A stretch of 33,951 bases of DNA from Pontiellaceae bacterium B1224 (GTDB taxonomy: Bacteria > Verrucomicrobiota > Kiritimatiellia > Kiritimatiellales > Pontiellaceae), in NCBI GenBank assembly GCA_029432815.1, contig JAROBA010000049.1, positions 1 to 33,951 of the forward strand. Direction: 5' to 3'. The notes beneath the pieces are model-generated. The model saw only the letters and a list, made by a program, of their open reading frames with translations, had not been told where the DNA came from and did no database searches. This document shows, piece after piece, positions 4,249-33,710 of the stretch. How positions within the stretch are numbered: position 1 is the stretch's first letter; every line of letters starts with the position of its first letter. The position numbers and the translations under genes are program-made.

Positions 4249-6246
4249 TTATGCTTTATCGGATTCAGTGCTTTCAGAAGCTTCTTCCGCCGGGTTTTCT
4301 TCCGGCTGCTCCGGCGTTTCTTCCGTAATGACTTCTGCTTCTGTCTGTTCGGGCTCTTCCGGCAGTTTGCCGGTTTTCATGATGGCATCAACTTCGCTGA
4401 AATCCAGTACTTCACGCTCGATCAGCATTTCCGACAGCGTAATCAGCTGCTCCTTGTTATCCACCAGAATCTGCATACATTTATCGTATGCTTCGTTGAG
4501 AATACGCTGTACTTCCTGGTCAATCTTCAGGGCGGTTTCTTCGCTGTGTTCGTGGGAACCGCTGATGCCTTGTCCGAGGAAGACCGGTTGGCTTCGGTTT
4601 CCGAGATTCTGCGGGCCGAGCAATTTGCTCATGCCGTATTCGCAGACCATTGCGCGGGCTATGGCAGTGGAGCGTTCAATATCGTTATGTGCGCCCGTAG
4701 TTACATCGCCAAAGATTAATTCTTCCGCGGCACGACCGCCCATGAACGAAATCAGGTCGGCTTCAATTCGCTTCTGTGACTGGGTATAGCGGTCTTTTTC
4801 CGGCAACTGCATGGTGGCACCCAGCGCACGGCCGCGCGGAATGATGGTGACTTTGTGAATCGGTTCACATTCCGGGGTCTTATACATCGCAATGGCATGG
4901 CCGGCTTCGTGGTAAGCCGTCAGTTTCTTTTCTTCCGGATCCAGCACGTGACTGCGGCGTTCGCGGCCCCACATCACTTTATCGCGCGCTTCTTCCATAT
5001 CCTGCTGTTCCACAAAATCAGCATTCCGGCGGGATGCCAGCAGGGCGGCCTCATTCACCAGATTCGCCAGATCTGCACCGGAGAATCCGGGCGTTCCGCG
5101 GGCGGATTTTTTCAGGTCCACCTGATCGGAAAGTTTGACGTTGCGGGAATGGATCTTGAGAATCTGTTCACGTCCTTCGAGGGTCGGAAGGTCCACCACC
5201 ACCTGGCGGTCGAAGCGGCCGGGACGCAGCAGTGCGGGGTCTAGCACGTCGGGTCGGTTGGTGGCGGCGACAATAATAATGCCTTCCTGTGTGTCAAACC
5301 CATCCATCTCAACCAGCAGGGCATTCAGTGTTTGTTCGCGTTCGTCGTGTCCACCGCCGATTCCGCTGAAGCGGCTGCGGCCGACCGCATCGATTTCATC
5401 GATGAAGATAATACAGGGAGCATTCTTTTTGCCCTGTTCGAACATATCGCGAACGCGGGAGGCGCCGATCCCCACAAACATTTCAACAAAATCGGATCCA
5501 CTGATAGTGAAAAACGGAACATCCGCTTCACCGGCCACAGCTTTTGCCAGCAGGGTTTTGCCTGTGCCCGGCGAGCCGGAAAGCAGCACACCTTTCGGCA
5601 TTTTTCCGCCCAGATTCTGGAACTGTTTCGGGTTCTTCAGGAACTCAACCACTTCCTCCAGCTCTTCTTTGGCTTCGTTAACTCCGGCCACATCCTTGAA
5701 GGTGATCTTGTTTTTATCCTGTGTCATCAGCTTGGCTTTGCTCTTGCCGAAGCTCATGGCCCCTTTACCCGCATTTTTCATCTGGCGGATAAAGATAAAG
5801 TAGATAATGCCGAAGATCAGGATGAACGGTACGATATTGAGCAGGATGGAAGTCATCGCTGTTTTAAGCGGTTTACTTTCAATTTCCACGGAATGCTCCT
5901 GCAGCAGGTTTTGCAGCGGGGTGTCCTCGCGGAAGGGGATATAAACCTTGAACGTTGTGGTTCCGGATTCGTTGAGATCTTTCGACTCGCCGGTGGCAAA
6001 CTGGTTGCCGGAACTGTCGTAGGACAGAACGACCTTCGAAATACGGTCCTGCTCAATCAACTTGAGAAAGCTGGAATAACTCATTTCATTCGAGGGAGCG
6101 TTTGAATCGGATAAAAATTGGAAAGCGACCAGAAAAATGGCTACGGTCAGAAAGGTAATCGCCAATCCGCGCATGGGCATCGGCGGCGGTCCCTTTTTCC
6201 CGGGCTTATCTGATTTCGGATCTTTCGATTGCTTATTTTCTGCCAT
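4249..6246 (-). CDS. ftsH: ATP-dependent zinc metalloprotease FtsH
   Basis: A 665-residue membrane protease that degrades misfolded or short-lived membrane and cytosolic proteins. A Lys/Pro-rich N-terminus is followed by TM1 (about 28-45), a periplasmic domain, TM2 (about 134-154), the AAA+ module and the zinc protease domain. Walker A is G-S-P-G-T-G-K-T at 224-231, Walker B F-I-D-E-I-D is near 281-286, and the zinc motif H-E-A-G-H is at 446-450. The C-terminus is a long acidic Glu/Pro-rich tail. The start at 6246 (M-A-E-N-K) is preferred over an in-frame ATG 24 codons upstream because it has an AGAAG ribosome-binding site and the upstream peptide lacks FtsH character. The gene follows tilS, a pairing seen in many bacteria. 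Confidence 0.98.
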
Positions 6247-6330
6247 AATGATTACTTCTTTCGTTAAAAACCGCGCAAAAACTACCACCGTGATCCGGCG
6301 AATGCAACGCGTACACACACAAACTTGGAG

Positions 6331-7626
6331 CTAATCGGTGCGATTTTGTTCAAGTTTCAAATGGATTGCTTTTTCAGCGGCATTTTTCAGCTCCCAGCCC
6401 CGTGCAATTCGATAGCCCGGAATCCAGATAATTTCCGTGCCGCACAGGACCACCGGAACCTGGTTTCGCCGGGCCCGCGGGATTTTATGATCGGTCAGGA
6501 TATCCTGCAGTTTACGGGTTCCTTTCATTCCGAACGGCGCAAACCGGTCGCCGGGCCGAACGGCGCGGACTGCGAGTTTTCGGGCGCCCACCATTTTGGC
6601 TGACACCGAGGCTGTTGCCGGCAGCTCTCCCAGCCGGCTCTCATCCTTTTTCCAGCCGGTTCCCGGTTCTTCAGTCAGCTTCCAGGGCGTTTTCAATGGT
6701 TGGAACGGCTGCTCCTCAAAGCGCGGTGTGCCATATTCCACTACCACACGCTGGCGATCGTTCAGCTCAAAAATGGTCGAACCCTCTGCGGAATCCATCA
6801 GCTTGAGAATCTGTTCCACGGCCTCAAATCCGGCCGTTTCAACGCCCTGTTCAAACAGCCACTTCCGAATCGTGCGTCTTTTGGCGGCCAGGGGCGTTCC
6901 GGGGTCAAATATCAGGTTTCCTGTTTCCAGTTTCTCCATCCATTCATTTTCCGCGCGCAGAATATCCATGGTGCGCAGGATGGTTTCGCGGATCTTCGGG
7001 TTCAGCTCGTTTCCAAGCATTGGAAGAATCGTGTGGCGGACTTTATTACGTAGAAAACGTTCGTCGGAATTACTCGAATCCTCGCGCCACTTAAATCCGT
7101 TTTCTTCCAACCATTGGAAAATTCCAGCCCTTGGAAGTCCCAGCATCGGGCGGATGATCTGTAGATTTTCCAGCCGTTGGAAAAGCGGCATGCCGCACAA
7201 ACCTTCGGTTCCGGCGCCGCGCGCCAGCTTCAGGATGAAGGTTTCGACCTGATCGTCGGCATGGTGGGCCAGGGCAATCACTGCATCGTCGAATTCGGAA
7301 AAAAAGTCATGCCGTGCCTGGCGCGCGGCCATCTCAACCGACTGTCCGGTCGTTTTGGCCAATGCCTGAACATCGACCGATTTTCCAACCATTGGAAAAC
7401 CCAGTTCGTCGGCCAGCCTCCGGACAAATTGTTCGTCGGCATCGGATTCCGCGCCGCGCAACTGATGATTCATGTGTGCAACGGTGCAGGGAATTTCCAA
7501 GGTCTGGAACGCCCGCAGAAGCGCCACCGAATCCGCCCCGCCCGAAACACCAATCACAACGCGTTTCCCGTCGGGAATCAGGTTGTGGCAGACAATGGCA
7601 TCGCGAATGGTTTCAACAATGTTCAC
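6331..7626 (-). CDS. tilS: tRNA(Ile)-lysidine synthase TilS
   Basis: A 431-residue N-type ATP pyrophosphatase that converts C34 of the CAU-anticodon tRNA-Ile to lysidine, so that AUA is read as Ile. The PP-loop S-G-G-A-D-S is at residues 28-33 of V-V-I-G-V-S-G-G-A-D-S, followed by H-M-N-H-Q-L-R and the A-H-H-A-D-D-Q-V-E-T motif. The C-terminal region carries R-P-G-D-R-F-A-P-F-G-M-K-G, the usual TilS tRNA-binding end. It lies 15 bases after secA and 84 bases before ftsH. The gene is unusually dense in the dispersed TTCCAA palindrome, with seven copies between 6691 and 7509. These give F-Q-x-L-E-like or P-x-x-G segments in less conserved stretches. Confidence 0.95.
   Translation of the reverse strand: MNIVETIRDAIVCHNLIPDGKRVVIGVSGGADSVALLRAFQTLEIPCTVAHMNHQLRGAESDADEQFVRRLADELGFPMVGKSVDVQALAKTTGQSVEMAARQARHDFFSEFDDAVIALAHHADDQVETFILKLARGAGTEGLCGMPLFQRLENLQIIRPMLGLPRAGIFQWLEENGFKWREDSSNSDERFLRNKVRHTILPMLGNELNPKIRETILRTMDILRAENEWMEKLETGNLIFDPGTPLAAKRRTIRKWLFEQGVETAGFEAVEQILKLMDSAEGSTIFELNDRQRVVVEYGTPRFEEQPFQPLKTPWKLTEEPGTGWKKDESRLGELPATASVSAKMVGARKLAVRAVRPGDRFAPFGMKGTRKLQDILTDHKIPRARRNQVPVVLCGTEIIWIPGYRIARGWELKNAAEKAIHLKLEQNRTD
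6691..7509. repeat. Cluster of seven TTCCAA-N3-TTGGAA palindromes inside tilS
   Basis: Perfect copies start at 7011, 7105 and 7383. One-mismatch copies start at 6691 (TTTCAA arm), 7122, 7168 and 7495, and each is 15 bp long. The copies at 7105 and 7122 are separated by only two bases. On the coding strand they are read F-Q-P-L-K (6691), P-M-L-G (7011), F-Q-W-L-E (7105), P-R-A-G (7122), F-Q-R-L-E (7168), P-M-V-G (7383) and F-Q-T-L-E (7495). Confidence 0.9.
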
Positions 7627-7641
7627 GCATCAATGCGGAAA

Positions 7642-10600
7642 TTATTCAGCTCCGCAGCACTTTTTATATTTCCGACCGCTGCCGCAGGGGCAGGGATCGT
7701 TCCGGCCGACATTGGCGTTCGGGGCCTGACGAATGGGCTGCGGCTTGGGGGCTGGCGGCAGATCCATTCCGGGAGGCGGTGCGCCCATTGGTTGTGGTCG
7801 CCGCTGTGGCGCACCTTGCGGCGCCTGGGCCTGTGCGGCCTTGGCCTGAGCTGTTGCGGCCGCGAGGGCCGATGCCTGCGGATTGTGCGAAACGCGCATC
7901 TTGGACATCGATTGGAAGAATTCTTCGATTGCTTCCACGGAAGTGGCCGAGCGGAACATGGCCGTGGCAATTTCTTCGTAGATGCGGTCCATCAGATCCA
8001 TGAACAGGTTGTAGGCTTCGCGCTTATATTCAATCAGCGGATCGCGCTGGCCATAGGCCTGCAGGCCGACCGATTCGCGCAGGCTGTCCATATTGCGGAG
8101 ATATTCCTGCCAATGCTCGTCGATCGACTGGATGATCATGTGGCGCTCAAGCCGCACCAGCGATTCTTCGTCTTCGTGCGTGGCCTTCATCTCGTAGGCT
8201 TCCTTCACCGCAGCCATCACAAAGTCCGTGAGACTGTCCTGTGTGAGTTCATCCGGCAGCTGAGATTCACGCAGACCGAGCGGGAAGGTTGTGTTGACCC
8301 AGGTCACAAATTCGCGGCAGTCCTCTTTTTTCTTTGCGAGGGCAACGGCATCGGCTGCTTTGGAGGCAATCGCCTGTTCGGCAGTATGGTAAATCAGTTC
8401 CCGCGGCACTTCGCAGGTGAGGGCTTCCGAACGGAAATCATAAATTTCACCACGCTGGGCATTCATGACATCGTCATATTCCAGCGTGCGTTTACGCATC
8501 ATGAAGTTTTGCTGTTCCACCCGGCGCTGAGCGGTTTCAATGGATTTATTCAGCCATGGATGTTCGAGCACTTCGCCTTCTTCGATTCCGAGTTTTTCCA
8601 TGATGCTCGAAATCCGGTCGGAGCCGAAGAGGCGCATCAGGTTGTCTTCCAGCGAAACGTAGAAGCGGGTAACGCCCGGGTCGCCCTGGCGGGCAGAGCG
8701 TCCACGCAGCTGGCGGTCGATACGGCGGGACTCATGACGCTCGGAAGCGATGACATAAAGTCCACACGGTTTTTCTTCGAGCAGTTTGCGCAGGGTTTGC
8801 CCTTCCACTTTGCTGTCGAGGGAGAACTCTTTGGAAAGCAGATCTTCCTGTTTCAGATAAACCACTTCTTTTCCGAGTTTAATATCCGTACCACGTCCAG
8901 CCATGTTCGTGGCAATCGTGACGGCGCCGGGCTGGCCGGCATTGGCAACAATCTCGGCTTCGCGGGCATGGTTCTTTGCGTTGAGAACATTATGAATAAT
9001 GTTTTCGCGGCGCAGCATGCGGCTGAGCACTTCCGATGTTTCAACGGCAACGGTACCAACCAGCACCGGCTGCTTTCGGGCGTGTGCCGCTTTGATTTCA
9101 TCAATGACCGCACGGAACTTTTCGCGCTGTGTTTTGTAGACCTGATCGTTGAGGTCCACACGACGAACCGGGCGGTTGGTCGGGATCACCATCACGTCCA
9201 GACCGTAAATCTGGTGGAATTCGTCGGCTTCGGTTTCGGCGGTGCCGGTCATGCCCGAAAGCTTGGTATACATACGGAAATAGTTCTGAATCGTAATGGT
9301 GGCCAGCGTCTGCGTTTCGCGTTCGATCTGTACGCCTTCTTTCGCTTCAACGGCTTGGTGCAAGCCATCGCTCCAGCGGCGGCCAACCATCAGGCGGCCG
9401 GTGTGCTCGTCCACGATATGAACCTGACCGTCCTGCACCACATAGTCGACGTCTTTTTCGTAGACACTGTAGGCGCGAATCAGCTGGTCAACCGCGTGTA
9501 CGCGTTCGTTGCGCAATGCGTAGTCTTCCTGAATGGAGCGGCGTTTTTCCATGATCTCTTCCGGGGAGAGGTCGGTGGCGCCATCAAGCTCGGCCATCAT
9601 GCTCACCATGTCCGGCAGTACATACATATCCGGATCGTTCGGGTTCATTTCTGCACAGCCGATTTCACTCAGGTTCGCATCGTGTCCTTTTTCGTCGATC
9701 GAAAACAACAGTTCCTGACGAAGTTCACGGGCCTGACCTTCGTTTTCCTTCTTCAACATGTCCATCTGGGTTTTTTCAAGCAGCTTGCGGTATTTCACAT
9801 CCTCAATCAGATGCATCAGCTGCTTGTTTTTCGGCATACCCTCGAACACCTGATACATTTTCAGGCCGGCTTCATACTCCTCGCCCTTCTCCAGAAGGTC
9901 TTTGGCTTCTTTCAGCAGACGGGTGCAGAGATCGCGCTGACGGCGCACAAGGCGTGCGGCGGCCGGCTGCAGCTCTAGATATTGCGTGGAAGAGTAGGGG
10001 GCCGGACCGGAAATAATCAGCGGTGTGCGGGCTTCATCGATTAAAATCGAGTCGATTTCGTCGACGATGGCAAAGTTATGGCCCTGCTGCTGCACCATAT
10101 CTTCCGGGCTGTAGGCCATATTGTCGCGCAGGTAGTCGAAGCCGAATTCGGAGTTGGTGCCATAGGTGATGTCGCAGAGATATTGTTCGCGGCGCAGCGG
10201 CGGCGGCATCATATTTTTCAGACAGCCGACGGTCAGGCCAAGCCATTTATAGAGATGTCCCATCCATTCGGAGTCGCGCTGGGAGTGATAATCGGATGTG
10301 GTGACCACGTGGACGCCTTTTCCGGAAAGGGCATTCAGGTATACGGGTAGCGTTGCCACCAGGGTTTTACCTTCGCCGGTCGCCATTTCGGCAATCATGC
10401 CTTTATGAATGGCCAGCCCGCCAATCAGCTGCACATCGAAGTGCACCATTTCCCAGGCGATCGGGTGTCCGATCACATCCACTTCCGTTCCGCAAAGGCG
10501 GCGGGACGCATTTTTTACAACTGCAAAAGCTTCCAGCTCGATGTCTTCCAGCGTTTCTCCGTTTTGAACGCGGGTCTTGAATTCTGCAGTTTTAGCCTGT

Positions 10601-25663: not shown

Positions 25664-27751
<2,088 letters not shown>

Positions 27752-29359
27752 TCAAACGGGGAGGCTGAGCGTGAACGAAACCATGCCATCGCTGTACGGA
27801 TTTAAGACGAGGTCGCCGCCGTGGGCGCGGGCAATTTCGCGGGCGAGGCTGAGGCCGAGGCCTGAGCCGGCGGTGGTACGGGATTTTTCAACCCGATGAA
27901 AACGTTCGAACAGCAGGGGGCGATCCGGATCCGGAATGGCGGGGCCGCTGTTGGCGAGTGTGAAACGGACGGTATCCTCGACCGGTTCCAGAGTGAAAAC
28001 AGCCCGTCCGCCTGGTTCCGCATATTTCGCGGCGTTGGAGGTCATGTTTCGGATCGTCTGGTTGAGCAGGGCGGGGTCGGCCAAAATTGTGATGTTCTTT
28101 GGAATGCGCGTTTCAACCTGCAGTTCGGGAGTCATGATTTCGATATCCTCCGCGGCGTTGGCGATCAGGTCGCTGAGGTCGACCGGCTGGCGGCTTACAT
28201 TGAGTCGGCCTTCGTCGGCATGCGCGAGCAACAGCAGTTTCTGCACGACCGCTTTCAGGTTGCGCAGCTCTTCGAGCAGCATACTGTAGCGCTGCTGTTC
28301 GGTGGAGCCGTCTTCCGAGGTTTGGATGGCGTTGTCGAGTTCGCCCTGCAGAATTGTCAGTGGAGTCTGCAGCTCATGTGCGGCATCGGCACTGAACCGA
28401 ACAGCCTGATGATAGCTTTTCTCCAACCGGTCGAGCATGTGGTTGGAGACTGTCACGAGACGTTCGAGTTCAATATCATTTCCAACCATTGGAATGCGTT
28501 GGTCGAGGCCTTTGGCGGTGATGCCTGCCGCGGTGTCAGCAATGGCCGCAACAGGTTTCATGGCCCGGTCGGCCAGATACCAGCCCATGAATCCGAGAAC
28601 GAGAAGGCCCAGCGGAACGGAAATCATGAAGGCGGTGCGGAACCGGTTGACCTCGGCATAGAACTCATCCATATCGAGGGCGGCAATAACAGTGATGTTT
28701 GGATTGCTGAAAATGCCAACGCGCCAGTTTTCAAAGGCCATGTTAACAGAGGTAAAGCTGGACTGGGTGGGCGGTCCGGGTTGATCCCCGAACATGGGAT
28801 GGCGGATTCCGGGGCGTCCCCCGGGATTGCCCCATTGTCGAGGAGGCGGAAGCTGTGCGGATTCTGCTGTATCGATAAATCCATCGTCATTTTGGTCGGC
28901 AGCTTCGAAGTCGTAGGCGGGGCCGTCAAACTCCTCCTTGGATACCTTTCCATCGGAGTCGAGGTCTCTTCTTGAAAGAAACAGCGGTTGTTGTGATTTG
29001 CTCCCGGTTTTGGACTGGATGAATTCAGGAGCTTCTGGGCGAGGCAGTGTTTTGAATTGGGCGCGCGCATTTTCGGTCTTAAACAACACCCGTTCATTGC
29101 GGTCCAGTACTGTGATAGAGATTCGTTTTGAACGGCCTTCGCCTTGAATGAATTGAATCGAGTTTTCAAATTGCGTCCAGTATTCGGGGGGATTATCTCC
29201 GCTCATCGGCACTTCCACCAGCGAGCGCAGTTCGCGGTCCATGCGTTCGATGCCTGATGAATAGATGAATGCAAAGAATGCGATCCCGAACGTGGTCAGC
29301 AGGGCCCCGGAGACCGCGAACGAAATCGTTGCTATTTTAAATTTGAAAGAGAGTTTCAT
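27752..29359 (-). CDS. Sensor histidine kinase with paired EF-hand loops in the sensor region
   Basis: A 535-residue membrane kinase. TM1 is about 9-33 and TM2 about 242-262, bracketing a periplasmic region of some 210 residues. This region holds two canonical EF-hand loops: 132-143 (Asp at 132, 134 and 136, Gly137, Glu143) and 155-166 (Asp155, Asn157, Asp159, Gly160, Asp163, Glu166). A Pro/Gly-rich stretch (about 170-200) follows. After TM2 come HAMP, the phospho-accepting His328 in D-A-A-H-E-L-Q-T-P-L, and the HATPase_c domain with G-S-G-L-G-L-S-L-A-R-E. The EF-hands imply Ca2+ binding outside the membrane (inference). The partner response regulator is 48 bases upstream. A perfect palindrome (28480) encodes P-M-V-G in HAMP. 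Confidence 0.92.
   Translation of the reverse strand: MKLSFKFKIATISFAVSGALLTTFGIAFFAFIYSSGIERMDRELRSLVEVPMSGDNPPEYWTQFENSIQFIQGEGRSKRISITVLDRNERVLFKTENARAQFKTLPRPEAPEFIQSKTGSKSQQPLFLSRRDLDSDGKVSKEEFDGPAYDFEAADQNDDGFIDTAESAQLPPPRQWGNPGGRPGIRHPMFGDQPGPPTQSSFTSVNMAFENWRVGIFSNPNITVIAALDMDEFYAEVNRFRTAFMISVPLGLLVLGFMGWYLADRAMKPVAAIADTAAGITAKGLDQRIPMVGNDIELERLVTVSNHMLDRLEKSYHQAVRFSADAAHELQTPLTILQGELDNAIQTSEDGSTEQQRYSMLLEELRNLKAVVQKLLLLAHADEGRLNVSRQPVDLSDLIANAAEDIEIMTPELQVETRIPKNITILADPALLNQTIRNMTSNAAKYAEPGGRAVFTLEPVEDTVRFTLANSGPAIPDPDRPLLFERFHRVEKSRTTAGSGLGLSLAREIARAHGGDLVLNPYSDGMVSFTLSLPV
28480..28494. repeat. TTCCAA-N3-TTGGAA palindrome, perfect, in the kinase HAMP region
   Basis: TTCCAACCATTGGAA, read P-M-V-G on the coding strand, at residues 290-293 of the histidine kinase. 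Confidence 0.9.
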
Positions 29360-29407: not shown

Positions 29408-30079
29408 TCACTCCGCTTTGAAGCGGTAGCCGACACCGCGGACGGTTTCGATGAGGGAAGTGGAATCGGGCGTATCGATCTTACTGCGGACCCGGCGGAT
29501 GTAGACGTCGACCACATTGGTTTGCGGATCGAAGTCGTAGCCCCAGACGTGTTCGAGCAGCTGGGTGCGCGAATAGACTCGGCCGGGCGAGCGCATTAAG
29601 AGTTCGAGTAAATTAAATTCGCGGCTGGTCAGTTCCAGAACCTCGCCGTTGTGTTTCACTTCGCGGGTGATGAGGTTGAGCTGAAGGTTGCCCTGATGGA
29701 TTACGCTGAGCTGGTCGCCGGAAGCGCGGCGGCTCACCGCAATGATGCGGGCAATCAGCTCCTCCATGAAAAAAGGTTTCGGCAGATAGTCGTCGGCACC
29801 GAGGTTGAGACCTTCCACGCGCTCGTCGAGCCCGCTGCGGGCGGTGAGAAGAATGACGGGTACCGTGTTCTTATCTTCGCGCAGGGCCCGTAGAATACTC
29901 AGTCCGTCGCGGCCCGGAAGCATGATGTCGAGCAGGATCACATCGTAGGTTTCTCCTGCAGCCAGATCATAGCCCTCGTCACCGTTGTGGCAGGCGTCCA
30001 CCACATAGCCTTGTTCCTTCAGCCCTTTTTGAACAAAGGCGGCAATCTTAAGGTCGTCTTCCACGATTAATAATTTCAT
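29408..30079 (-). CDS. OmpR-family response regulator
   Basis: A 223-residue regulator. The receiver domain has E-D-D at 7-9, the phospho-accepting Asp51 in I-L-L-D-I-M-L-P-G-R-D-G, Thr in L-L-T-A-R and Lys in L-P-K-P-F. The C-terminal winged-helix DNA-binding domain contains L-T-S-R-E-F-N-L-L-E-L-L and the V-W-G-Y-D-F-D-P-Q-T-N-V-V-D-V-Y-I-R-R-V-R recognition region, typical of the CopR/CusR-like branch. The start at 30079 (M-K-L-L-I-V-E-D) is preferred to an ATG 33 codons upstream, which would read through the candidate operator. It forms a two-component pair with the EF-hand kinase downstream. Confidence 0.95.
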   Translation of the reverse strand: MKLLIVEDDLKIAAFVQKGLKEQGYVVDACHNGDEGYDLAAGETYDVILLDIMLPGRDGLSILRALREDKNTVPVILLTARSGLDERVEGLNLGADDYLPKPFFMEELIARIIAVSRRASGDQLSVIHQGNLQLNLITREVKHNGEVLELTSREFNLLELLMRSPGRVYSRTQLLEHVWGYDFDPQTNVVDVYIRRVRSKIDTPDSTSLIETVRGVGYRFKAE

Positions 30080-30118
30080 GCTGACTGAATACCATAGACC
30101 ACCGTTTTCCGGCCAAGG

Positions 30119-30145
30119 ATTTATGATTACAAAAGGTTCATAAAT
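30119..30145. promoter_or_regulatory. Candidate operator: perfect 8-bp inverted repeat upstream of the response regulator
   Basis: ATTTATGA (30119-30126) and TCATAAAT (30138-30145) are exact reverse complements around an 11-base spacer, 40-66 bases upstream of the response regulator start. The spacing (19 bases centre to centre, about two helical turns) suits a dimeric DNA-binding protein. Autoregulation by the adjacent regulator is a reasonable guess; OmpR-type proteins more often use direct repeats. Confidence 0.45.
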
Positions 30146-30618: not shown

Positions 30619-31461
30619 ATGACAAAACAAGCGGTTATCTACATTCATGGGATCGGGAAGCAGCAGGATGGTTATTCTCGTAAGAGTGCAATCAAGTTGC
30701 AGGAAACGTTTGAGAAAATCCTCAAGAAGAAAGATGACTCCATCGAACCGCCGGATCTCATTTTCCGGGAAGTTAACTGGGCCACCATCACCTCCGGACC
30801 GCAATCCGTACTGTGGTCTCGGGTGAATAAAAAACATGATCTCGATATGGTTAAGCTCCGCAAGTTCATGGTCGCATTTGCCGGCGATGCGATTGCTTAT
30901 CAGAAAACAGGCGAGGGCGATGAAGTTTATTATGAGATCGATGCTAAGGTGCAAAAGAGCATCGATGCCGTTAAAGCGGAATATCCGGACGACGAAATTG
31001 AATTCACGTTTGTGGCGCACAGTTTAGGAACCATCGTTGTTTCAAACTATCTTTACGACCATTCCGACGACATCACTGCCACGAACCTGTTTACACTGGG
31101 ATCGCCCATTGCGGTCTGGGCCTTACGTTATGGCGATCCATCTAAAGCCGACAGCCCAACGCAGGTCGAGCGACCGTACGGAGCCTGGATAAATATTCTC
31201 GATGACGAAGATATTGTTGGCTATCCCCTGCGCGAATTAAACCCCCACTATAAAAAAGCGGTCGACATGGACTACGTCACCGAAATCGGCGGCGTCATCA
31301 GCATGGGAAATCCCATCAGTCATATTGGCTATTGGGAAGACAACAACGCCATAAAACCCATCGCCTACAAACTCATGCTCGACTATCTGCGCATCCACCA
31401 AGGGAAGTCGTACAGTAAACCCGCTTACCTGAAATACATCCGCTCGCTTTGGAATATATAA
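30619..31461 (+). CDS. AHSLG-type alpha/beta hydrolase, function unknown
   Basis: A 280-residue predicted cytoplasmic serine hydrolase of lipase/esterase fold. The oxyanion motif H-G-I-G is at 10-13, the nucleophile is Ser135 in V-A-H-S-L-G, and a candidate acid is Asp197 in D-D-E-D-I-V. A candidate base is His235 in P-I-S-H-I-G-Y-W. No signal peptide is seen. The segment 20-120 between the first strand and the nucleophile elbow is long and charged. The substrate is unknown. It is followed 105 bases later by a second, distantly related hydrolase, which shares H-G-x-G, A-H-S-L-G-T and the general order but little else. It is preceded by an AAGGGG ribosome-binding site. Confidence 0.8.
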   Translation: MTKQAVIYIHGIGKQQDGYSRKSAIKLQETFEKILKKKDDSIEPPDLIFREVNWATITSGPQSVLWSRVNKKHDLDMVKLRKFMVAFAGDAIAYQKTGEGDEVYYEIDAKVQKSIDAVKAEYPDDEIEFTFVAHSLGTIVVSNYLYDHSDDITATNLFTLGSPIAVWALRYGDPSKADSPTQVERPYGAWINILDDEDIVGYPLRELNPHYKKAVDMDYVTEIGGVISMGNPISHIGYWEDNNAIKPIAYKLMLDYLRIHQGKSYSKPAYLKYIRSLWNI

Positions 31462-31566: not shown

Positions 31567-32595
31567 ATGCCGAAAAGTACAATCATGCTTGTTCACGGAA
31601 TGGGAAAGCCTACTGATGAAATGTTCAATCAATGGCAAGCGGCACTTAAGCGTATCTATGAACAGTATTCAGAAGGAGAGCTCTTTGAAGATCGCTTCGA
31701 TTGTTTCAACATTGAATATGATTCAATCTTTGAAAACTTGCGCGATAATTGGAATGAGCAAATCGAGAGTATTTTGAATAGTGATGTAACCGGACTGCCA
31801 TTCCCAAGCGAGGATGACCTTTCGGCTCTTACAGAGGATAACTTCTATACAACTCATATTCAGGATGTGCTTCTGTACCGCTTTGTTCCCATGGTCGCTG
31901 AACATGTTCGATCGCATGTTATTGCCAAGATCAATGACGTGGTTCAGGCGGTGCATAGTTCTTCAAAAATTTCCATAATCGCCCATTCTTTAGGAACCTC
32001 CGTCATACACGATGCTGTGAATGCCATGTACAACACTCCGGGGGATAATGGGCAGACTCTTTCTCCGCTGGATTTTCGATTTCAAACGGTTGCAATGATT
32101 GCAAATGTCAGCCGGACGCTTAAGACCCGCTGGAACCCATACGATCCATTGGTAAGACCGGGACTTGGCAACTCAAGTAACTATGTCACCAATACGTTTC
32201 TAAGCACATCCCATAAATGGGATCCCCTGGTTTCGTTGCGAAGGTTTGCTCCGGCGGATAACTGGCCTGACGCTGAGACCGTTTCCAAAGGGCGGGTTTC
32301 AGTTGTTGAACCAAGTATTATTACACGGCCCAATATTCATGACTTTTTACACTACCTGGAAAACCCGCAGGTCAACATACCGTTGTTCCGGATGCTTCGG
32401 CATAAACGCTTTGTCAATCAAGGAGAGCAGGAGGCTGCTGAAAATGCATATTTTGCAGCAAATCCAATCAGCGCGTTCGATGATTATCGAAAGGAATTAA
32501 AGTCAATGCTTACAGGAGAGGCAGATTTCTCGTGGAAGCGTTTGATGGATGTATCCAAGGACTTTGAGATGCTGGTGAAAGATTTTACTGATTAA
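31567..32595 (+). CDS. Second AHSLG-type alpha/beta hydrolase, function unknown
   Basis: A 342-residue predicted serine hydrolase. It has H-G-M-G at 10-13, nucleophile Ser141 in I-I-A-H-S-L-G-T-S, candidate Asp219 in H-K-W-D-P-L and candidate His258 in P-N-I-H-D-F-L-H-Y. No signal peptide is seen. The W-D-P-L and N-I-H-D-F-L-H-Y context resembles DUF/lipase-like proteins annotated only as hydrolases. A clear AGGAG ribosome-binding site precedes it. The next gene starts 12 bases on, so the two are probably cotranscribed. Base composition is lower in G+C than the core genes. Confidence 0.8.
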   Translation: MPKSTIMLVHGMGKPTDEMFNQWQAALKRIYEQYSEGELFEDRFDCFNIEYDSIFENLRDNWNEQIESILNSDVTGLPFPSEDDLSALTEDNFYTTHIQDVLLYRFVPMVAEHVRSHVIAKINDVVQAVHSSSKISIIAHSLGTSVIHDAVNAMYNTPGDNGQTLSPLDFRFQTVAMIANVSRTLKTRWNPYDPLVRPGLGNSSNYVTNTFLSTSHKWDPLVSLRRFAPADNWPDAETVSKGRVSVVEPSIITRPNIHDFLHYLENPQVNIPLFRMLRHKRFVNQGEQEAAENAYFAANPISAFDDYRKELKSMLTGEADFSWKRLMDVSKDFEMLVKDFTD

Positions 32596-32606: not shown

Positions 32607-33710
32607 ATGAGAAATAAACTTAATTCATATGCTGTCGCGCTGTTTGCACTCGCCATCGGCGCATGTATGGCTAGTGCTGATATATATAATTATGGAACAG
32701 ATGTTGAATCAGCATTTGCTGAGGCGATTGATGATGATAATGATGCCTTATTTGAAACAGCTAGTCTTTCGAATGTGTCAGCATCTGTATTCCAGTTTAA
32801 TGATGAAGATGTGAAAGATAATATCGTGCGACTTGAAAATGGATTGTCGTCGATGAAAGAGATCGTCTTTTATGCCCGTGAAAAGTTGGATTCCAGCGTC
32901 GAGTTAGAAGGCGACTTGCTTGAAGCAATTGAGAGTGTGTGGCGGCAGCTATCAGGGAGTGCTGCAACAAATATTCTAATTCGTCCAACCAGTTGGGAAA
33001 TTGATGGCGATTCATTTGTTCTGGAACTTGGCCCTCAGGAACAGATTCTTAATTTTCAAACAACCTACTTGGATAACGTTGCCTCAGCACCGGCTGCTTA
33101 CACAAATGCTATTGATACCCTTGGTATTCTCCAGTTGACATATCAAACGCTGAATTATGTTAAACGGAAGAATGCAGTTGGAGAAATCGGAGCAGTTGCA
33201 GAAGAGAGAAAAGCTCAGTGGGATGTCTACTTTAATGAATCCATTCCTCAGTGGCCCTGGGAACTGGCGCTGGTTAATGGACCCATTTATGCGCACTCGC
33301 TCAAAAATGAAAAGGGGTTCGGAAAGGTCCCGGAATGGCAGATGATCGTCGCCCATCCGGATCTGGCTATTGAGTATGTCAAGGATGCGGCTGATGGAGA
33401 TCAGTTTATGCCAGCACTCCTGATTGAAATTATCGGAGCTAACTTTTGGATATGGGAAGATGGCGACAAGCAAAAGGGGCCATGGGGATTCCCTGTGCCT
33501 CTCGGCGCAGGTGTTGTTGCTACATACTCTGATCGAGCTGGAATTGATGACTGGGGCTTCGGTGCCGTCATACACATCGACAATGTCTATAATATCGGAG
33601 CAACATTTCGAGGAAGCGATACAGGAGTTTTCTTTAGCCTGAACCTCGCGAAACTGTTTGAGAACAAGAGCAATGAAGCGAAAAAGTACCTAAACATGAT
33701 TGGAATGTAA
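32607..33710 (+). CDS. Secreted protein of unknown function downstream of the hydrolase pair
   Basis: A 367-residue protein that I do not recognise. Residues 1-24 are a signal peptide (K-L-N-S-Y-A-V-A-L-F-A-L-A-I-G-A-C-M-A-S-A). Cleavage after A-S-A at 24 is most likely; the internal G-A-C at 18-20 is a poor lipobox. The mature N-terminal half is acidic and helical. The last 80 residues are rich in Gly and aromatic residues with alternating patterns (W-G-F-G-A-V-I-H-I, G-V-F-F-S-L-N-L), suggesting beta strands. A strong AAGGAG ribosome-binding site and a 12-base gap tie it to the second hydrolase. A sampled stretch (32701-32760) is 37% G+C against 60% in a sampled part of prs. Confidence 0.75.
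   Translation: MRNKLNSYAVALFALAIGACMASADIYNYGTDVESAFAEAIDDDNDALFETASLSNVSASVFQFNDEDVKDNIVRLENGLSSMKEIVFYAREKLDSSVELEGDLLEAIESVWRQLSGSAATNILIRPTSWEIDGDSFVLELGPQEQILNFQTTYLDNVASAPAAYTNAIDTLGILQLTYQTLNYVKRKNAVGEIGAVAEERKAQWDVYFNESIPQWPWELALVNGPIYAHSLKNEKGFGKVPEWQMIVAHPDLAIEYVKDAADGDQFMPALLIEIIGANFWIWEDGDKQKGPWGFPVPLGAGVVATYSDRAGIDDWGFGAVIHIDNVYNIGATFRGSDTGVFFSLNLAKLFENKSNEAKKYLNMIGM

Follow-up and report, generated by a model that had tools for sequence, protein, structure and literature searches.

Within the 33,951-nucleotide stretch of DNA analysed here (the window), from Pontiellaceae bacterium B1224, lies the gene for a membrane sensor histidine kinase with a genuine EF-hand pair in its periplasmic part, as chance statistics, its retention in eight orthologues and a model of the module's structure all indicate. 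A preliminary description of this DNA had proposed such a pair. We suggest tentatively, and with a little less than even confidence, a small, self-contained feedback circuit linked to a cation and made up of this kinase and a periplasmic EF-hand protein encoded with it. The host is a marine-type anaerobic bacterium whose genome groups with the Pontiellaceae (Kiritimatiellota). To our knowledge, the sensing of extracellular Ca2+ by bacteria is poorly understood, and bacterial EF-hand proteins mostly lack a defined link to transcription. If the proposal is correct, this would be the first kinase in which a paired EF-hand sensor module is shown to work via a cation common to the kinase and its product, and this private cation circuit would belong to the Kiritimatiellota and their relatives.

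The sensor kinase and its EF-hand module

The kinase (535 aa) is encoded at positions 27752–29359 on the (−) strand, and its architecture was assigned from the open reading frame, Pfam, NCBIfam and hydropathy. Two transmembrane helices, placed by hydropathy at residues about 12–34 and about 240–262, flank an extracytoplasmic domain of residues about 35–240. They are followed by a HAMP region (residues 262–313; a Pfam match below the cut-off), a HisKA domain with its phospho-acceptor histidine (residues 321–384; Pfam, 2.6e-8) and a HATPase_c domain (residues 428–534; Pfam, 2.4e-20). By these assignments the protein has a complete set of working-kinase parts, and its predicted cognate regulator is of the OmpR/PhoB type, encoded directly upstream (29408–30079, (−) strand; start MKLLIVEDD; Pfam Response_reg and Trans_reg_C). 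The downstream neighbour, identified by eye, is an NAD-dependent DNA ligase gene, the apparent start of which falls inside the open reading frame at 25664–27751 (− strand). Its synteny with the kinase is conserved, and we do not think it part of the proposed circuit. Elsewhere in the window are two adjacent alpha/beta-hydrolase-like genes (30619–31461 and 31567–32595, both (+) strand), with weak matches to Lipase_3 and DUF676, followed at 32607–33710 by a gene for a protein of 367 aa that matches nothing in Pfam.

As a membrane sensor kinase the protein is unremarkable and falls in the broad CusS/HprS-like group, and the best solved match to its core is HprS (9epn). By NCBIfam score the nearest families are CztS/SilS/CopS for the kinase (TIGR01386; 218.4, against a curated cut-off of 292.55) and CztR/SilR/CopR for the regulator (TIGR01387, cztR_silR_copR; 242, against 279.2), so that neither reaches its cut-off. 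With CztS/SilS/CopS (CusS) and HprS, and their CopR/HprR regulators, the system shares its architecture, its HisKA/HATPase core and its regulator family; it differs from them in having an EF-hand module in the sensor domain. A search of the extracytoplasmic domain across the eleven members of the kinase clade described below found no conserved His or Cys, a further difference that disfavours a Cu/Zn-type sensor; Met230 and Met40 are nearly constant. Membership of the heavy-metal CopS family was rejected on the score cut-off and on this absence of conserved soft-metal ligands.

The two EF loops, DLDSDGKVSKEE (residues 132–143; 28931–28966) and DQNDDGFIDTAE (residues 155–166; 28862–28897), both on the (−) strand, were located by pattern match and are kept in eight orthologues. 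Each fits the canonical pattern, with D or N at positions 1, 3 and 5, G at 6, V or I at 8 and E at 12. They stand within a few bases of the range given for them in the preliminary description and, as it had also stated, between the two membrane helices. In a scan of all six frames of the 34-kb window these loops were the sole matches to the EF pattern, and among 200,000 shuffles of the extracytoplasmic segment one loop arose in 116 and two loops in none. One might still suppose that acidic sequence resembles EF loops by chance or through low complexity, as the surrounding linkers are variable and of low complexity, and Pfam EF-hand_5 gives the kinase 25.3 bits, narrowly below its cut-off of 25.9. 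The shuffling result, the retention of the ligands in eight kinases and an identity of about 39–50% over this stretch to dedicated, secreted EF-hand proteins, which themselves clear the EF-hand_5 cut-off, leave us giving this idea next to no credence, and the conservation of the loops has refuted it already.

Modelled alone with two orthologues in AlphaFold2, the mini-domain of residues 118–174 (28838–29008, (−) strand), which includes part of the variable linkers, gave a mean pLDDT of 78.9. The model is a paired helix-loop-strand-helix-loop-strand-helix with strands in both loops, and the two hands are predicted to pair via short beta contacts. Its alignments with EF-hand proteins, NCS-1 and calmodulin among them, have a Z of about 7, a value that can reflect a common arrangement, and the top Foldseek matches to the module are EF-hand proteins, none of them below an E of 0.001. 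The model of the whole extracytoplasmic domain, and with it the sensor core, is poor (pLDDT 56) and therefore offers no structural support for coupling between module and signalling. The Foldseek list for the whole domain (PAS-like proteins, and CusS 5ku5 at E 0.41) was discarded on account of the same low pLDDT.

The loop starts are 23 residues apart, which leaves an inter-loop linker of 11 residues (FDGPAYDFEAA; 28898–28930, (−) strand). In typical Ca2+-responsive EF proteins the inter-loop distance is about 25 residues and in lanmodulin 12–13 (PMC10232371), and the earlier statement that the loops are spaced as in a real EF-hand pair is wrong for a pair of the classical kind. Across the fetched loci, intervals of 23 or 24 are by far the commonest (33 of 48), and this spacing is the local compact form in these bacteria. 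EF pairs spaced in the same way recur in many secreted proteins of the phylum, for example in proteins of about 490 aa (L102–L106).

The 11-residue linker comes close to that of lanmodulin, in which adjacent loops are also set a short way apart (PMC10232371), and a sequence profile matches lanmodulin 6mi5 in register, albeit weakly. The module might thus bind another hard cation, such as a lanthanide. We consider this very improbable: Pro stands at loop position 2 in 0 of the 16 loops of the eight EF-bearing kinases, each module has only two EF hands, and closely spaced loops are usual in these genomes across many kinds of protein. Lanmodulin itself carries four EF hands, one or more of them with Pro at position 2 (PMC10232371), and the kinase has neither feature. 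Membership of the lanmodulin family was accordingly rejected on the missing Pro and the number of EF hands, despite the spacing and the weak profile match.

Conservation and loss of the module

The closest named relatives, Pontiella desulfatans MAG_Ve_Sed_49 and Pontiellaceae bacterium B12227, are 70–71% identical and put the genome within or close to the Pontiellaceae. Homologues were sought in 43 genomes from the order and in 388 from the phylum. Eleven of the 30 kinases in a tree form one clade (support 99/98). The EF pair is present in eight of these eleven kinases, drawn from three families (the window, G004, G021, G028, G020, G003, G086 and G414). The ligands are kept in all 16 of their loops, with Ala allowed at position 8 in one; the spacing is 23 in every case and the linker conforms to FDGPxxxFxxx. 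All eight share, among other residues, D132, G137 and E143 of the first loop, F144, D145, G146, P147 and F151 of the linker, and D155, D159, G160 and E166 of the second loop. No kinases outside this clade were found to carry the EF pair in the 388 genomes searched across the phylum, in keeping with the earlier remark that such kinases are unusual in bacteria. The open-access literature was searched for a kinase whose sensor contains an EF-hand pair, and none turned up.

The module, carried on hypervariable, Pro/Gly-rich linkers, sits in a sensor loop that is flanked by conserved parts. Its identity to the window's module in the other seven kinases is 45–52% at any overall distance, compared with 5–43% for the linker before it and 14–50% for the linker after it. 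Since the loops, their spacing and the FDGPxxxF linker are kept while the flanking linkers are hypervariable, the pair would appear to be a selected mini-domain. Loops missing from close orthologues would have told against the preliminary description. Its claim stands for the closest relatives, all of which keep the pair, and fails for three other clade members (G017, G013 and G206), from which the pair is absent; the pair is therefore a module that the conserved sensor core can do without. The simplest history is an ancestral EF pair followed by two or three losses, because the earliest-looking branch (G414, L093) has the pair, the long G414 branch itself being placed unsurely. In the G013 kinase (L050 1544–3382, (+) strand) a long Tyr/Pro/Gly repeat, GQTSPYNFGP-like, occupies the position of the EF module, and the kinase gene is followed by a CotH gene.

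It is likely that the module binds Ca2+. What the ion would do there is a separate matter, as it could be a signal or else a structural or docking cofactor only. Seawater Ca2+ is millimolar and a marine periplasm is normally rich in Ca2+, so that in such a habitat the sites of an ordinary EF pair would mostly be occupied. The EF pair might then be a constitutively Ca2+-loaded module, always folded in seawater Ca2+, that holds the kinase to a partner (for example the secreted EF-hand protein) or stabilises a long loop, the real signal being read by the conserved core. The hypervariable linkers on which it sits in the sensor loop, the other clade kinases that have no module or an unrelated low-complexity insert, the compact 11-residue linker and the marine habitat of the described Pontiella strains (PMC7356697) are all in favour of such a role. 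Against it, every ligand is strictly kept in eight kinases while other loop residues are free, which suggests that metal binding matters, although a metal with a structural role would leave the same trace; moreover, any such partner is hypothetical. On balance we judge a purely structural or docking role possible but rather unlikely.

Secreted EF-hand proteins and an operator-like site

In six of the eleven clade genomes the two-component system has beside it a gene for a secreted protein made of this EF pair. In five of them (G021, G028, G003, G017 and G206) the gene is divergent from the response regulator gene or lies a little upstream of it, and in G414 it lies downstream, after the kinase. 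Outside the clade, the EF-hand gene next to a related kinase (G373, L098) is divergent from its regulator gene too. Two of the three clade kinases that lack the pair (those of G017 and G206) have an EF-hand gene beside the system. The presence of a secreted EF-hand protein supports a role for a divalent cation, and fits a docking or a feedback role equally well. In G004 the divergent slot (L044 1314–3158, (−) strand) is taken, in place of the EF-hand protein, by an Lcl_C protein that matches TSP3 and has an EF-like loop. At L093, L096 and L110, related kinases are adjoined by secreted proteins of the Lcl_C or YHYH kind that contain EF loops.

Comparison of upstream regions revealed a conserved operator-like site of 25 bases, ATGAACCTTTTGTAATCATAAATCC, upstream of the response regulator gene (30117–30141, (−) strand); the regions compared share ATGAATNTTTTGTAATNATAAATCC. 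When the genome of the window was scanned with up to three mismatches, this was the one copy found, and a reversed-pattern control gave 0. Five further genomes (G004, G017, G020, G021 and G028) have one copy each, at this locus, and G013 has the site at this locus and one further copy, both at three mismatches. Genome scans found no site within three mismatches in G003, G206, G086, G414, G002 or G012; by eye only, divergent copies can be made out before the EF-hand gene in G003 and in the shared intergenic region in G206. A wider regulon was sought in these scans, which gave one copy per genome where the site was found at all, and two in G013. Most simply, the site would be an autoregulatory operator, with the EF-hand gene as a second target in the divergent arrangements.

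A plain Ca2+-responsive system, as the preliminary description had envisaged, would be one in which Ca2+ on the EF pair switches the kinase and the regulator controls Ca2+-dependent genes. The sensor does contain canonical loops, and in relatives the genes next to the system or divergent from it are often for secreted proteins that bear Ca-type motifs (EF-hand, or Lcl_C with EF or TSP3). However, the spacing of the loops is short, the module has been lost within the clade, and the loops are likely to be saturated in a marine habitat. Furthermore, the occurrence of the site only once or twice per genome argues that there is no wide regulon. We therefore think it quite unlikely that the system is of this kind.

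A putative cation-linked circuit

The feedback circuit is the reading we favour, because the same module recurs in the kinase and in the neighbouring secreted protein. In this proposal a compact EF pair, built into a loop of the extracytoplasmic sensor domain on flexible linkers, would most likely bind Ca2+, or a hard cation like it, on the outer side of the cytoplasmic membrane. The kinase would sense some condition of the envelope, tuned by cation occupancy of the EF module, and its response regulator would act at the one conserved site before its own gene. In several relatives this putative operator lies between the regulator gene and the divergent gene for the periplasmic EF-hand protein, which the kinase would induce. 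The induced protein would have its presumed ligand in common with the kinase, and it may either compete with the kinase for that cation or dock to it, so closing the loop. The more specific idea that the common EF pair makes the kinase and the product it controls compete for, or bridge through, one cation is doubtful, if worth entertaining. What the sequences show is the loops, their conservation, the neighbouring EF-hand genes of relatives and the conserved site with its single copy; the binding of a cation, the function of the site as an operator and any coupling between module and kinase activity are inferred from them.

Several observations weigh against the circuit. The three clade kinases without the pair imply that it is unneeded for a working sensor core, and five of the eleven clade genomes, the window's own included, have no adjacent EF-hand gene within the stretch examined. 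The site is not found within three mismatches in four of the genomes that have the EF-hand gene or the EF-bearing kinase (G003, G206, G086 and G414). In addition, the spacing is unlike that of Ca-responsive EF pairs, and the sensor core, modelled at pLDDT 56, leaves the coupling of module to signalling structurally unsupported.

The proposed arrangement has known parallels. In CpxP/CpxAR and ZraP/ZraSR, a periplasmic accessory protein is encoded divergently from its two-component system. The likeness is that in the relatives studied here the gene for a small secreted protein is divergent from the regulator-kinase operon and the two have an intergenic site in common. The present case differs from CpxP and ZraP in that its accessory protein is of the EF-hand type and its module is found inside the kinase as well. 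It departs from their layout in that the accessory gene is adjacent in only six of the eleven clade members and lies elsewhere in the window's own genome.

Among Ca2+-linked sensors, the parts of PMC10574481 drawn on here name CarSR, CvsSR, PhoPQ and LadS, the last of which is described as binding Ca2+ through DISMED2. These are likewise membrane sensor kinases, tied to external Ca2+, but an EF-hand pair is not attributed to them in those parts of the source (PMC10574481). Stand-alone periplasmic EF-hand proteins are known in EfhP of Pseudomonas (PMC4053335) and CaBP of Caulobacter (PMC13171946), which are also envelope proteins with canonical EF loops and a link to regulation; here, unlike in those cases, the EF pair occurs within the kinase as well as in a stand-alone protein. 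There is also a precedent for the gene context, in that an EfhP homologue of P. syringae adjoins kinase and regulator genes (PMC4053335). As far as sequence comparison can tell, what is new in the present system is the secreted protein of the same EF pair beside it in six of the eleven clade genomes, together with the conserved single-copy operator-like site. The EF-pair kinase, its orthologues with and without the pair and the EF-hand partner would make a compact system for the study of Ca2+ binding, output and feedback.

In the genome of the window the slot next to the system is filled by unrelated genes, and a search upstream of the regulator within the window found no relic of an EF-hand gene. 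The likely counterpart of the partner gene, apparently relocated, is on contig C44, at about 69026–69526 (L051 9027–9527, (−) strand), and has no recognisable copy of the operator-like site. Since the partner gene is thus on another contig and without the site, the circuit may be partly unwired in this genome. The gene is followed in L051 (G000:C44:60000–79900) by genes for a ferric-reductase-like membrane protein (7944–8591, (−) strand) and an FAD protein (6230–7957, (−) strand) that has a fumarate-reductase C-terminal match. The ferric-reductase neighbour is common to C44 and G003, and the FAD-protein neighbour is shared by G028. Upstream of the C44 gene, at about 9640–9670 of L051, is a direct repeat, CTTAATCTCCGCTTAAG, that resembles an OmpR-type site and lies about 3 kb from a different two-component system; the EF-hand gene may have changed its regulator.
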